A DNA stretch of 64,000 nt from Solimonas terrae. Lineage in GTDB: Bacteria > Pseudomonadota > Gammaproteobacteria > Nevskiales > Nevskiaceae. A model generated the notes under the pieces. The model searched no databases. It was not told the DNA's origin and saw only the letters and a program-made list of their open reading frames with translations. Positions 1,987-37,255 of this stretch are shown here, in pieces. The stretch is from positions 372,001 to 436,000 of the forward strand of contig NZ_JAAMOW010000001.1 in NCBI RefSeq assembly GCF_011067135.1. The letters run 5' to 3'. A program made the translations under genes and the position numbers. Position 1 is the stretch's first letter. Each line of letters begins with the position of its first letter.

Positions 1987-2607
1987 TCAGGCGGCCGGCA
2001 GGATGCCGCGCGCGCCCAGCAGCTTCAGCAGGGCTTCGACTTCTTCCTGCAGGCTCATCTGGTGGCTCGGCAGCACCAGCTCGGCCCGCTCGGGCGCTTC
2101 ATACGGATCGCTGATGCCGGTGAAGTTCTTGATCTCGCCGGCGCGCGCCTTCTTGTACAGGCCCTTGGGATCGCGCTTCTCGGCTTCGGCCAGCGGCACG
2201 TCGACGTACACCTCGATGAAGTCGATGCCGGCGTCATCGTGCAGCTTGCGGACCAGATCGCGGTCGGCGCGGTACGGCGAGACGAAGCTCGACAGCACGA
2301 TCACGCCGGCGTCGACGAACAGCTTCGCCACCTCACCGATGCGGCGGATGTTCTCCGCGCGGTCTTCGGCGGAAAAGCCGAGGTTCTTGTTGATGCCGAG
2401 ACGCACATTGTCGCCGTCGAGCCGGTAGGCCAGACGTCCCTGCGACTGCAGCACCTTCTCCAGCGCAACGGCGACCGTGCTCTTGCCGGAACCGGACAGG
2501 CCGGTGAACCAGATCGTTGCGCCCTTCTGCCCGAGCAGGCGGTTGCGGTCGGCGCGGGTCACTTCACCTTCGTGCCAGGTGACGTTGGTAGCTTTCTGTT
2601 CGGTCAT
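1987..2607 (-). CDS. cysC: Adenylylsulfate (APS) kinase
   Basis: Phosphorylates APS to PAPS with ATP, the second activation step. The 206-aa protein is a usual length. Seen: P-loop GLSGSGKST near residues 36-44, then [18 protein letters not shown] and [16 protein letters not shown], the substrate-binding core of APS kinases, and the lid motif [14 protein letters not shown]. It is the first gene of a cysC-sat pair, and its start faces a divergent LysR gene across a 156-bp AT-rich region with inverted repeats, so LysR control is likely but unproven. Confidence 0.95.
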
Positions 2608-2689
2608 TGTTGCTCGGGAGATTTTGCGTGGGCGGTACGGCGTTACCGGCCAAACGCCGGAACGGCCGACATCATAGGCGCTTGCTTTC

Positions 2690-2743
2690 CATATTTAAAA
2701 TGCAATATATGAAAATATGAGTTCTCTTTTATTCATGCATGAA
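2690..2743. promoter_or_regulatory. Divergent cysC / lysR control region with inverted repeats
   Basis: In the 156-bp gap the base composition turns sharply AT-rich. CATATTT (2690-2696) is matched by its inverse AAATATG (2713-2719), and TTCATGCATGAA (2732-2743) is a perfect 12-bp palindrome 20 bp before the LysR ATG. LysR regulators typically bind such dyads (T-N11-A type) between themselves and a divergent target. The repeats are read directly; binding by this LysR is inference. Confidence 0.5.
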
Positions 2744-2763
2744 AATTCGCCCGGCGTGAGCAC

Positions 2764-3657
2764 ATGAATCTCAATCACCTCGCGATCTTCCAGGCCGTTG
2801 CCGCCGGCAGCAGCGTCAGCGCCGGCGCGCGCCGACTCAACATCAGCCAGTCCGCCGTGTCCAAACAGCTCGCCGAATTCGAGCGCAGCGTCGGCGTCAG
2901 CCTGTTCCATCGTCTGCCACGCGGCATGCGCCTGACCGAAGCCGGCCGTGTGCTGCTGGGCTTCGCCAATCGGTTGTTCGCCATCGAGGCCGAGGCCGAA
3001 CTGGCGCTGCGCGATCTGCGCCAGCTCGCGCGTGGCCGCATCGCGATCGGCGCCAGCCGCACGATCGGCGCCTACATGCTGCCGCAGGTGCTGGCCGCAT
3101 TTCGCGAACAGCACCCGGGCGTCGAGCTGGCACTGCAGGTCGAGAACACGCAGGCGATCGAGGACAAGCTGGTTGCCGGCGAGATCGACATCGGCTTCGC
3201 CGAAGGCATCGTCCGCAGCGACGTGCTCGACTATCAGGTCTTCGCACAGGACGAGCTGGTGCTGATCGCCGCTCCGCACCATCAGGCTGCGGGCGCGGCA
3301 GCACTGAGCCTTCAACAATTGGCGAAGCTGCCGTTGCTGATGCACGAACCGGGTTCCGGCACGCGCGCCGTCACCGAACGGGCACTGCTGTCCAAAAAGC
3401 TCGATGTGCGGCCGGCGATGACGCTGGCGAGCACGGAGGCAATCAAGCACACGGTGGCGACCGGTGTCGGTCTCGCAATCCTGTCGGCGCTCGCCGTGCA
3501 GACCGAACTGCGCGCAAGAACGCTGGTCGTCGTACCGGTCAAGGACCTGCGCATCCGCCGCCCGCTGTATCGCGTGCAGCTGAAGAACATCTGGCCCAGC
3601 CCGTCGCTCGAGGCCTTCCTGCCGTTCCTGCGCTACGCGACCACGACGACCTCGTGA
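2764..3657 (+). CDS. LysR-family transcriptional regulator, likely of sulfate activation
   Basis: A 297-aa protein with an N-terminal winged helix-turn-helix (ARRLNISQSAVSKQLAEFE, about residues 22-40) and a C-terminal periplasmic-binding-like effector domain (from ~90), the standard LysR layout and length. It is divergent from cysC-sat, which makes those genes the most probable target. By family the effector would be a small molecule (for CysB/Cbl, O-acetylserine or APS), but nothing in the sequence fixes it, and it does not look like a full-length CysB (~324 aa). It ends 3 bp before the stop of the convergent nuclease gene. Confidence 0.85.
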   Translation: MNLNHLAIFQAVAAGSSVSAGARRLNISQSAVSKQLAEFERSVGVSLFHRLPRGMRLTEAGRVLLGFANRLFAIEAEAELALRDLRQLARGRIAIGASRTIGAYMLPQVLAAFREQHPGVELALQVENTQAIEDKLVAGEIDIGFAEGIVRSDVLDYQVFAQDELVLIAAPHHQAAGAAALSLQQLAKLPLLMHEPGSGTRAVTERALLSKKLDVRPAMTLASTEAIKHTVATGVGLAILSALAVQTELRARTLVVVPVKDLRIRRPLYRVQLKNIWPSPSLEAFLPFLRYATTTTS

Positions 3658-33814: not shown

Positions 33815-34510
33815 CTACTTCTTGTGTCGCACGTCCGGATCGGCGCGCCATTGTTCGGCGCCAAGGAACACCAGACGGATCTGGCTGATGAAGTTCTCTT
33901 CCAGTTCGCGGGTCAGCTGCGGCTGGTCGGCCGGCAGATCGAGAATGTCGCTGGCGGCGTTGAGCATGGTGTTGATGACCAGGCTGCAGATCATCTCCAG
34001 CGCTTCGGTCGGCAGATCGGAGCGGTACCCGATCAGGCGCAGGTCCTGCGCCATCTCGCGCACGAAATGACCGACTTCGTTGCGGATCGCCTGGCGCATC
34101 GCCGGCGAACCGCCGTTGCGCTCGCTGGCCGCCGTGCGGAAATGGCGCGGATGGGCGCGCACGTACTGCAGATAGATCGCCACCGAGTGGCGAATGATGT
34201 CGGTGGTGGGCACGCCGGCCTTGCGCACTTCGCGCAACAGGCGCCGCAGGGTCAGCCCGCATTCCTCGACCAGCGCCAGTCCCAGCTCGTCCATGTCGTG
34301 GAAATGCCGGTAGAAAGCGGTCGGCACGACACCCGCCTCGCGCGTCACCTCGCGCAGGCTCAGACTCGGAAAGCTGTTGCCGCCGCTCATCAGGGTCAGC
34401 GCCGCATCGAGCAGACGCTCGCGCGTCATCTGCTTGCGCGCACCACGGCCGGCGCCCGGAGCTTCCACTCCGGCAGCGGATTCCAGCTTTCGACGAGCAG
34501 ACATGTTCAC
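33815..34510 (-). CDS. desT: TetR-family repressor, FabR/DesT type
   Basis: A 231-aa TetR regulator. Its DNA-binding half reads FPSLSLREVTREAGVVPTAF, then YRHFHDMDELGLALVEECGL, which closely follows FabR/DesT, the repressors of unsaturated fatty acid genes that sense the saturated/unsaturated acyl-CoA or ACP ratio. The C-terminal ligand domain is longer than in FabR. It is divergent from a reductase-desaturase pair, the same neighbourhood as desT-desCB in Pseudomonas, and the shared promoter region carries strong inverted operator arms. Regulation of membrane-lipid desaturation is therefore very likely. Confidence 0.85.
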   Translation of the reverse strand: MNMSARRKLESAAGVEAPGAGRGARKQMTRERLLDAALTLMSGGNSFPSLSLREVTREAGVVPTAFYRHFHDMDELGLALVEECGLTLRRLLREVRKAGVPTTDIIRHSVAIYLQYVRAHPRHFRTAASERNGGSPAMRQAIRNEVGHFVREMAQDLRLIGYRSDLPTEALEMICSLVINTMLNAASDILDLPADQPQLTRELEENFISQIRLVFLGAEQWRADPDVRHKK

Positions 34511-34570
34511 AATATAACATCAATCATGACAATGAGTTGAATATATAAGTAAAGCATTGGAAATTTTTCA

Positions 34571-34628
34571 GTGAACAAGTGTTGACATTCTGCTGCGGCG
34601 CAGCAACTATATGTGCACACTTGTTCAC
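34571..34628 (+). promoter_or_regulatory. Desaturase promoter bracketed by paired operator sites
   Basis: GTGAACAAGTGT (34571-34582) is perfectly inverted as ACACTTGTTCAC (34617-34628). Each arm extends into its own imperfect 16-bp palindrome of the form GTGnACAnnTGTnCAC or a close variant. A consensus -35 TTGACA (34582-34587) overlaps the left arm, and a -10-like TATATG (34608-34613) abuts the right arm (spacing 20, longer than ideal). TGCTGCGGCGCAGCA, another near-perfect dyad, sits between. Two repressor dimers here would enclose the promoter. Confidence 0.75.
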
Positions 34629-34641
34629 AGACAGCACGTCG

Positions 34642-35748
34642 ATGCCCACACCGGTCCTGCCTCTCCGTCTCCGTGATCACGCCAGCCGCATGCTGCGTTC
34701 ACCCTTGCTGCACCCGTTGAACGATGCCGACGCGATCAACGATCTGCTCGCCCTCGCCAACCCGCGCTGGTCGTTGACCGAGATCCGCGCCGAGGTCGTC
34801 GGCCGCGAGCAGCAGACCGCCGATACCCTCCGCTTCTGGCTGCGCCCGAACCGGCGCTGGAAAGGCTTTCGCGCCGGTCAGCATGTGGCGATCACGGCCG
34901 AGATCGACGGTGTCCGTCACACCCGCGTCTACAGCCTGTCCTGCGATCCGGCCGTGCCGGGCCTGCTGACGCTGACGGTCAAGCGCCAGGCCGACGGCCG
35001 GGTGTCGAACTGGCTGCACGATCAGCTGCGCGTCGGCAGCATCGTCACCCTTGGCGATGCCGACGGCGACTTCGTGCTGCCGACCCATGGCGGACCGCTG
35101 CTGCTGCTCAGCGCCGGCAGCGGCATCACGCCGATGCTCGCACTGCTGTACGAATTGCGGGCTCGCGTCCGCGCCGGCGATACCGAACAAGACATCGTGC
35201 TCGTGCACGTCTGCCGCGATGCCGGCGACCAGATCTTCGCCAACGAAGTGCGCGAACTCGCCGCCGACTGGCCGGCGCTGCGCATCGAGACCTGGCACAG
35301 CGCGAGCCGCGGCCGGCCTGCACCGGATGCCCTGCTCGCCGCCGTCCCCGATTACGCCACGCGCGACACCTTCCTGTGCGGACCATCTGCCTTCATGGCC
35401 GACATCGAAGCGCACTGGGCCGATCGCGGCATCACCGAACGCCTGCGCCTCGAACGCTTCGGCGCCGCGCCGCGCAGGCTCGAAACCGGCGATGCCTCGG
35501 AAGTGCGCTGCGCGCGCTCCGAACGCATTTTCACGACCGAAGCCGGCGAAGCCCTGCTGCCGGCCGCCGAGCGCGCGGGCCTGAAGCCCGCCTACGGCTG
35601 CCGCATCGGCGTCTGCCGCACCTGTCTCTGCCACAAGCGCGGCGGCACCGTCGAAAACCTCGTCACTGGCGAGCGCTCCGGCAACGGCGACGAATGGATT
35701 CGTCTCTGCGTCAGCACCCCGCGCAGCGACCTCGAACTGGAGATCTGA
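34642..35748 (+). CDS. Ferredoxin-NAD(P)H reductase-type oxidoreductase, desaturase electron donor
   Basis: A 368-aa flavoprotein with a C-terminal plant-type [2Fe-2S] domain. Seen: FAD site HTRVYSLSCDP (~93-103), NAD(P) loop SAGSGITPMLALLYEL, FLCGPSAFM, and cluster cysteines in GCRIGVCRTCLC plus a fourth Cys in RLCVST near the end. It moves electrons from NAD(P)H to the desaturase encoded 2 bp downstream, like DesC of Pseudomonas or Rv3230c of Mycobacterium. The start at 34642 is chosen because the longer frame overlaps the promoter and operators. Confidence 0.88.
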   Translation: MPTPVLPLRLRDHASRMLRSPLLHPLNDADAINDLLALANPRWSLTEIRAEVVGREQQTADTLRFWLRPNRRWKGFRAGQHVAITAEIDGVRHTRVYSLSCDPAVPGLLTLTVKRQADGRVSNWLHDQLRVGSIVTLGDADGDFVLPTHGGPLLLLSAGSGITPMLALLYELRARVRAGDTEQDIVLVHVCRDAGDQIFANEVRELAADWPALRIETWHSASRGRPAPDALLAAVPDYATRDTFLCGPSAFMADIEAHWADRGITERLRLERFGAAPRRLETGDASEVRCARSERIFTTEAGEALLPAAERAGLKPAYGCRIGVCRTCLCHKRGGTVENLVTGERSGNGDEWIRLCVSTPRSDLELEI

Positions 35749-35750
35749 AG

Positions 35751-36842
35751 ATGAGCACCCTGAACCGCAAACGCCTCAGTCGCGAAGACGCTGCCGCCCT
35801 GCAGACCGATCTCGACGCGGTCCGCGACAGCGTCATGAACACGCTGGGCGAAAAGGATGTCGCGCACATCCGCCGGATGATCCGTCGCGCCCGCGGCAGC
35901 GCGATCGCCGGCCGCGCGATGATCGGCCTGGGCTTCGACCCGGTCACGTTCGTCGTCGGTGTCGCCGCCCTGGCCCACGCCAAGATCGTCGAGAACATGG
36001 AGATCGGCCACAACGTCATGCACGGCCAGTACGACTGGACCAACGATCCGGCGCTGAACTCGCAGCGCTACGAATGGGACAACGTCTGCGATGCCGGCAT
36101 GTGGCGTCATTTTCACAACTACGAACACCACACCTACACCAACATCCTGGGCAAGGATCGCGACTTCGGTTACACCATTCTGCGCATGTCCGATGAGCAG
36201 AAATGGCATCCGTTCTTCCTGTTCCAGCCGGTCTGGAACGCGATCCTCGCGCTGGCGTTCGAATGGGGCGTGGGCGGTCACGACATCGGCGCCGAGCGCC
36301 TGCTCGACGGCAAGATGAGCTGGAAGGAATTCAAGGAACGCTCACGTCCGTTCCACAAGAAAATCCGCAAGCAGCTGTTCAAGGACTACGTGCTGTTTCC
36401 GCTGCTGACGTTCTGGAACGCGCCGCGTGTGCTGCTCGCCAATCTGCTCGCCAACCTGATCCGCAACCTGTGGTCGTACGCGATCATCTTCTGCGGCCAC
36501 TTCCCGGAGGGCACGCAGGTCTTCAGCGAAGCCGACAGTGACAACGAAACGCGCGGCGACTGGTACTACCGCCAGCTCTGCGGCTCGGCCAACATCGAAG
36601 GCAGCCGCGCGTTCCACGTGCTCAGCGGCCACCTGAGCCACCAGATCGAGCATCACCTGTTCCCCGACATGCCGGCCCACCGCTACGCCGAGATCGCGCC
36701 GCAGGTGCAGGCGATCTGCGCCAAGTACGGTATTGCCTACAACACCGCGAGCTTCGCGCGGCAGTACGGCACGGTGCTGGGCAAAGTGTTCCGCCATGCG
36801 CTACCGTCACGTCGGACCACCCCGGTTCTCGCCGAAACGTGA
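35751..36842 (+). CDS. Membrane fatty-acid (acyl-CoA) desaturase
   Basis: Di-iron membrane desaturase of 363 aa. Seen: three histidine boxes HNVMH (87-91), HNYEHH (122-127) and HQIEHH (297-302), with hydrophobic helices between (~52-78, 155-173, 212-250). The third box in QxxHH form places it in the DesA3/linoleoyl-CoA-desaturase-like family (COG3239), not the DesB/stearoyl-CoA family usually paired with DesT. The most probable reaction is O2-dependent desaturation of a saturated acyl-CoA using the upstream reductase; regiospecificity cannot be read from sequence. Confidence 0.88.
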   Translation: MSTLNRKRLSREDAAALQTDLDAVRDSVMNTLGEKDVAHIRRMIRRARGSAIAGRAMIGLGFDPVTFVVGVAALAHAKIVENMEIGHNVMHGQYDWTNDPALNSQRYEWDNVCDAGMWRHFHNYEHHTYTNILGKDRDFGYTILRMSDEQKWHPFFLFQPVWNAILALAFEWGVGGHDIGAERLLDGKMSWKEFKERSRPFHKKIRKQLFKDYVLFPLLTFWNAPRVLLANLLANLIRNLWSYAIIFCGHFPEGTQVFSEADSDNETRGDWYYRQLCGSANIEGSRAFHVLSGHLSHQIEHHLFPDMPAHRYAEIAPQVQAICAKYGIAYNTASFARQYGTVLGKVFRHALPSRRTTPVLAET

Positions 36843-36850
36843 AACGACCG

Positions 36851-37255
36851 ATGAAACCGCTGCAGCGACTCGAACTTCTCAAGGATCTGGTGCAGCAGGC
36901 CGTCGACCGCGGCGCGACCTCGGTCGAGGCCATCCACCAGCAGATCGCCGCGCTACCGTTCGAGATGCTGGAGAAATCCGGCCTGCTCGACGACGACAAG
37001 CTGCGCCTGCGCGACAAGCAGCAGCGCACGATCGGCACGGTCTACGACGCGATCCGCCGCATCAACCGCCAGGTCGGCGAACTGATCTCCGACCAGTTCG
37101 AGCTGGTCGAGGACAGTGCGCACATCAAAAAAGTGCTCGACGAGAAGGACGCCGCCAAGGCTGCGGCGCGTCCACGAAAGACAGCGACGAAAGCGGAACG
37201 CGCACCGGCGAAGAAGCCGCTGAAGGCGAAGAAGACAAAGACGTCCAGGTCTTAG
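36851..37255 (+). CDS. Hypothetical basic-tailed helical protein
   Basis: A 134-aa protein 8 bp after the desaturase stop; a GTG at 36839 overlapping that stop is an alternative start. Residues ~1-90 are charged and predicted helical (LQRLELLKDLVQQAVDRG, IRRINRQVGELISDQFELVE). The last ~40 residues are a Lys/Ala/Arg/Thr-rich tail (ARPRKTATKAERAPAKKPL) that could bind nucleic acid or acidic surfaces. I do not recognise the family. Its position suggests co-transcription with the desaturase pair, perhaps as a phasin- or granule-like helper, but that is only a guess from context. Confidence 0.6.
   Translation: MKPLQRLELLKDLVQQAVDRGATSVEAIHQQIAALPFEMLEKSGLLDDDKLRLRDKQQRTIGTVYDAIRRINRQVGELISDQFELVEDSAHIKKVLDEKDAAKAAARPRKTATKAERAPAKKPLKAKKTKTSRS

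Follow-up and report, generated by a model that had tools for sequence, protein, structure and literature searches.

A TetR-type repressor gene that is divergent from a reductase–desaturase pair raises the question of whether the locus is a DesT-desCB unit, as in Pseudomonas aeruginosa, or a departure from it. DesT is the repressor of desCB, and its binding is weakened by saturated and strengthened by unsaturated acyl-CoA; P. aeruginosa DesB is reported to carry out the Delta-9 desaturation of acyl-CoA in a DesC-dependent manner (PMC10634369). In a first-pass annotation of the window (the whole 64-kb stretch of DNA analyzed here), two departures from this scheme were proposed: a desaturase of another class than DesB and a doubled operator in place of a single one. 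Both fail, and the locus is, judged by its sequence and that of its relatives, an ordinary DesT switch that offers little new. Herein, repressor dimers on two operators, O1 and O2, would very probably block the desC-desB promoter in a manner tuned by acyl-CoA.

All features of the first-pass annotation—repressor, reductase, desaturase, and an exact 12-bp inverted pair—were found in the open reading frames and sequence of the window (Table 1). The repressor contains a TetR_N domain and is encoded divergently from the reductase gene, which is followed by the desaturase gene; the operators lie in the intergenic gap between. This gene order equals that of P. aeruginosa PA7. The reductase combines FAD_binding_6 (PF00970) and NAD_binding_1 (PF00175) with the 2Fe-2S ferredoxin domain Fer2 (PF00111) and adjoins desB, as expected of a DesC, and the desaturase matches FA_desaturase (PF00487). 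The 138-aa ORF downstream probably shares an operon with desB. A Pfam search with it gave no match. It is kept 3′ of desB in five other members of the genus, whereas three relatives from other genera (L102/L179, L104, and L126) have it opposite fabR in divergent orientation, and this conserved neighborhood suggests a lasting tie to the FabR regulon.

Table 1. Coordinates of the genes, operators, and promoter elements of the locus, given as positions in the window
Feature	Position	Strand	Remarks
fabR/desT-type TetR repressor	33815-34510	minus	231 aa; GTG start at 34510, alternative ATG at 34504
Weak third site GAGCAGACATGTTCAC	34495-34510	+	11/14 match; at the repressor start codon
Operator O1 GTGAACAAGTGTTGAC	34571-34586	+	right half holds most of the -35 element; conserved in relatives
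-35 element TTGACA	34582-34587	+	embedded in O1
Putative -10 element AACTAT	34605-34610	+	17-nt spacing; weak consensus match
Operator O2 GTGCACACTTGTTCAC	34613-34628	+	over the predicted start site; pair conserved
desC: ferredoxin/NAD(P)H reductase-like electron donor	34642-35748	+	Pfam domains; 35.6% identity to the PA7 reductase beside desT
desB: membrane fatty acyl desaturase	35751-36842	+	PF00487; 44.9% identity over 352 aa to PA7 DesB
Small ORF	36839-37255	+	138 aa; 4-bp overlap with desB

The assignment of the regulator to the FabR/DesT type is supported by two lines of sequence evidence. Against the NCBIfam FabR equivalog NF008402, it scores 175.8 bits and thus exceeds the curated cut-off of 151; it is the only FabR match above that cut-off in the whole genome. 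Its closest solved structure is DesT (PDB 3lsj, E 3e-37, 40% identity). The second line is the presence of GTGnACAnnTGTnCAC-like palindromes near the target promoter, two sites of which are found here and conserved in relatives. The first-pass annotation is borne out in this respect, and the identity of only 40% to DesT counts to that extent against the predicted DesT unit. FabR-family matches occur in nearly all of the 61 genomes searched, and 33 of these genomes have one above the FabR cut-off.

O1 and O2 are 16-bp imperfect palindromes with a distance of 42 bp from start to start. The inverted pair that had drawn attention to the promoter, GTGAACAAGTGT (34571-34582) and ACACTTGTTCAC (34617-34628), represents the outer 12 bases of O1 and O2, so that each arm does lie within its own palindrome. 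In each palindrome, the half that matches the consensus is the outer one, and this makes the arms inverted. Hence, the pair is no separate element, as O1 and O2 are each palindromic alone. In the 4.42-Mb genome, exact matches to GTGNACAANTGTKSAC occur only at O1 and O2, and its reversed pattern, taken as a control, gave no match. Allowing up to one mismatch adds a single place, within an hflX-like coding frame, and allowing two raises the count to 20, in which many places figure once per strand, compared with four in controls. Shuffled intergenic regions contained at least two such sites in 31 of 13,800 trials. Genome uniqueness and shuffles together show that the O1/O2 pair is not due to chance. 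The third site of Table 1 is a weak candidate for a possible autoregulation of the repressor; in three of the five other genus members aligned, a TGTTCAC/TGTACAC half is found near the start codon.

To see how the layout is distributed, 80 Pseudomonas or related loci were fetched with the solved DesT sequence and the window regulator. P. aeruginosa PA7 leads this set, its DesT being identical (100%) to the solved protein 3lsj throughout the matched region; in strain PAO1, desT is PA4890. The desT-desC region of PA7 contains GTGAACGCTTGTTGAC and GTGAACGATCGTTCAC, 43 bp apart. Sixty-six loci with a regulator divergent from a reductase gene were chosen by regulator homology and not by operator, and 57 of them carry an operator pair at a spacing of 32 or 40-43 bp. 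Within the order of the window, the pair is found in 51 of 85 genomes, with no match to the reversed pattern. The loci are related by descent, which means that these pair counts are not independent and overstate independence. A class-wide search with the exact strict pair pattern returned two of 369 genomes, the window's own and one relative of the same order; this pattern is too stringent for gauging spread across the class. Being unlike a single operator is, thus, no departure from DesT, since PA7 itself, most Pseudomonas, and most relatives within the order of the window carry the pair. A paired operator with the -35 element inside one half-site is, by this comparison, the usual layout of such promoters. 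Two relatives of one genus (L118 and L124) show a single recognizable site; a second operator can, hence, be dispensed with. In two other loci (L178 and L187), the operator pair and desCB stand away from fabR, an arrangement that fits a regulator acting in trans.

Further arrangements were observed among the collected loci. The intergenic region of L042, from a Pseudomonadaceae MAG, has three successive operators at 42-bp steps. In L103, L105, L107, L108, and L117, more distant FabR paralogues, which share about 29-33% of their residues with the regulator of the window, are divergent from reductase genes; here, another motif, ATATACAnnTGTATAGACAnnTGT-like in most of these loci and apparently in overlapping repeats, replaces the paired GTGAACA sites.

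The position of the promoter relative to the operators offers a simple and testable account of how the repressor would shut it off. A generic promoter scan did not call the desC promoter, which, like the weak consensus match of the -10 element, counts against this account; the evidence for the elements in Table 1 comes from the paired loci. The right half of O1 reads TTGAC in 55 of the 57 paired loci, whereas the palindrome would demand TTCAC. In all 57 of them, the -35 element is followed 16-18 nt later by a -10-like hexamer whose second base is A and whose sixth is T, compared with 10.9 expected from shuffles. Altogether, 87 distinct pairs were collected by a search that demanded TTGAC in O1 (hence, all carry it). 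They are spaced by either 32 or 38-43 bp, values of 33-37 bp do not occur, and the commonest spacing is 41-42 bp (49 of the 87). For pairs spaced by 38-43 bp, the end of the best -10 element falls from four bases before to one base past the first base of O2; for those spaced by 32 bp, this element lies inside O2. This suggests that the distance between O1 and O2 is set by the placement of the -35 and -10 elements and not by the helical face: the spacing in the 38-43 bp class follows from both elements having to fall there. Helical phasing had been considered on the basis of an early sample with spacings of only 32 and 40-43 bp and was dropped after many 38-40 bp pairs were found across the order; such spacings argue against a strict same-face requirement.

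The mechanism that we infer consists of repressor dimers binding both operators and repressing the divergent desC-desB operon. The dimer on O1 would cover the -35 element and the dimer on O2 would sit at the -10 element and start site, each blocking RNA polymerase separately. According to the established DesT scheme, saturated acyl-CoA would weaken this binding and unsaturated acyl-CoA would strengthen it. DesB, receiving electrons from DesC, would then make unsaturated acyl chains when these are scarce. The first-pass annotation had read the spacing as two dimers or a loop. The former part stands insofar as two operators enclose the promoter and are probably occupied by two dimers; the latter is unneeded, as two dimers that each block the polymerase explain the spacings of 32 and 38-43 bp.

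The alternative that survives best is that the two operators act jointly, through cooperative dimers or a short loop across the promoter. The strong conservation of the pair speaks in its favor, as does the helical repeat: the spacing of 41-42 bp seen in 49 of the 87 pairs corresponds to approximately four helical turns and the 32 bp class to approximately three. However, the other genera of the order often have spacings of 38-40 bp, which are not in phase with 42, and the 38-43 bp range is accounted for by where the -35 and -10 elements must fall, with the end of the -10 element at -4 to +1 relative to O2. Hence, we regard joint action as unlikely, and separate blocking by two dimers is retained.

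It is considerably less probable still that the main target of the repressor lies elsewhere, with the desCB sites being secondary. Precedents exist, since E. coli FabR controls fabA and fabB and DesT also binds fabAB (PMC10634369). However, no FabA above the family cut-off was found in the genome (best score 28.8 bits compared with 238), and only three of the 61 genomes searched have a FabA over it. Thus, an E. coli-type FabR regulon with fabA as its target is not seen, and the repressor, with FabA unrecognized in the genome, probably serves desCB alone. Equally against such a target is that the genome holds no further exact operator match and that a second desCB-like operon lacks the sites. 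This operon lies on contig C15 of the same genome, at about 428600-430940 (L009, L191), with a methyltransferase-like ORF after it. The desaturase that it encodes shares 45% identity with that of the window and 42% with PA7 DesB (tblastn), and neither FabR operators nor a FabR neighbor are present at the locus. desCB of the window is, thus, probably the sole clear target of the repressor in this genome, as far as operator matches indicate. With ten PF00487 matches, nine of them above the cut-off, the supply of unsaturated fatty acids may rest on several desaturases. Outside this genome, in two genomes from another family of the order (L185, at 2079-3181, and L192), an operator pair is followed not by desCB but by the gene of an AdeT1/2-type solute-binding protein, which is a possible extra FabR target.

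A broader reading, which we put forward tentatively and which falls somewhat short of being probable, concerns the lineage as a whole. As it is mostly without fabA, the repressor may have become a dedicated desaturase switch; the doubled operator would then be a conserved double lock, one dimer on the -35 element, whose TTGAC is at once an operator half, and the other at the -10 element and start site, placed by promoter geometry and giving a steeper response than a single operator.

That a DesT-like repressor was recruited to a non-DesB class of desaturase with a non-DesT operator layout, as the first-pass annotation had it, is scarcely tenable: the desaturase does belong to PF00487 and has the boxes HNVMH (residue 87), HNYEHH (122), and HQIEHH (297), but PA7 DesB is 44.9% identical to it over 352 aa (E 1.9e-99) with the same HNVMH and HQIEHH, paired operators occur in PA7 and other Pseudomonas, and the PA7 locus refutes it provided that this locus is desT-desCB, for which the full identity of its DesT to 3lsj in the matched region speaks. 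The histidine boxes had, thus, been read correctly and the class contrast drawn from them had not; DesA3/COG3239 and DesB form a false contrast, as DesB by its sequence belongs to that class. With three histidine boxes and homology to P. aeruginosa DesB, the desaturase of the window qualifies as a DesB, and a PDB search with it yielded no useful relative. The fit of the reductase to the DesT-DesC scheme is upheld by its identity to PA7 DesC (Table 1) and by the same divergent order of reductase and then desaturase beside PA7 desT.

FabR control of desABC has already been described by comparative genomics in several gammaproteobacterial lineages (PMC5343134). The locus extends this known membrane-lipid switch to another gammaproteobacterial order, and the scheme itself is unchanged.

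Compared with known systems, the repressor shares with E. coli FabR the same NCBIfam family above its cut-off and an operator pattern whose core recurs in the window sites, the E. coli motif being AGCGTACACGTGTTCGCT as quoted in PMC4273635. The two differ in that E. coli FabR controls fabA and fabB, whereas the genes adjoining the window repressor form an operon for an aerobic desaturase. The FabR-desA system of Shewanella oneidensis (PMC4273635) resembles the window in that fabR and the gene of an aerobic desaturase are divergently arranged, with a FabR-like site at the promoter; it contains a DesA-like desaturase and one described site, in contrast to DesCB and two sites here. The closest counterpart is DesT-desCB of P. 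aeruginosa, represented by the PA7 locus (L020). Both consist of a divergent TetR repressor and a reductase–desaturase operon with homologous proteins, both desaturases carry HNVMH and HQIEHH, and both promoters have two 16-bp operators, the first of which contains TTGAC. Identities are moderate (40/36/45% for repressor, reductase, and desaturase), the spacing is 42 bp in the window and 43 bp in PA7, and the second box is HNYEHH in the window and HTHNHIHH in PA7. In P. aeruginosa, fabAB is a further DesT target, whereas no FabA is recognized in the window genome, and the window locus has, unlike P. aeruginosa, an extra small ORF 3′ of desB.
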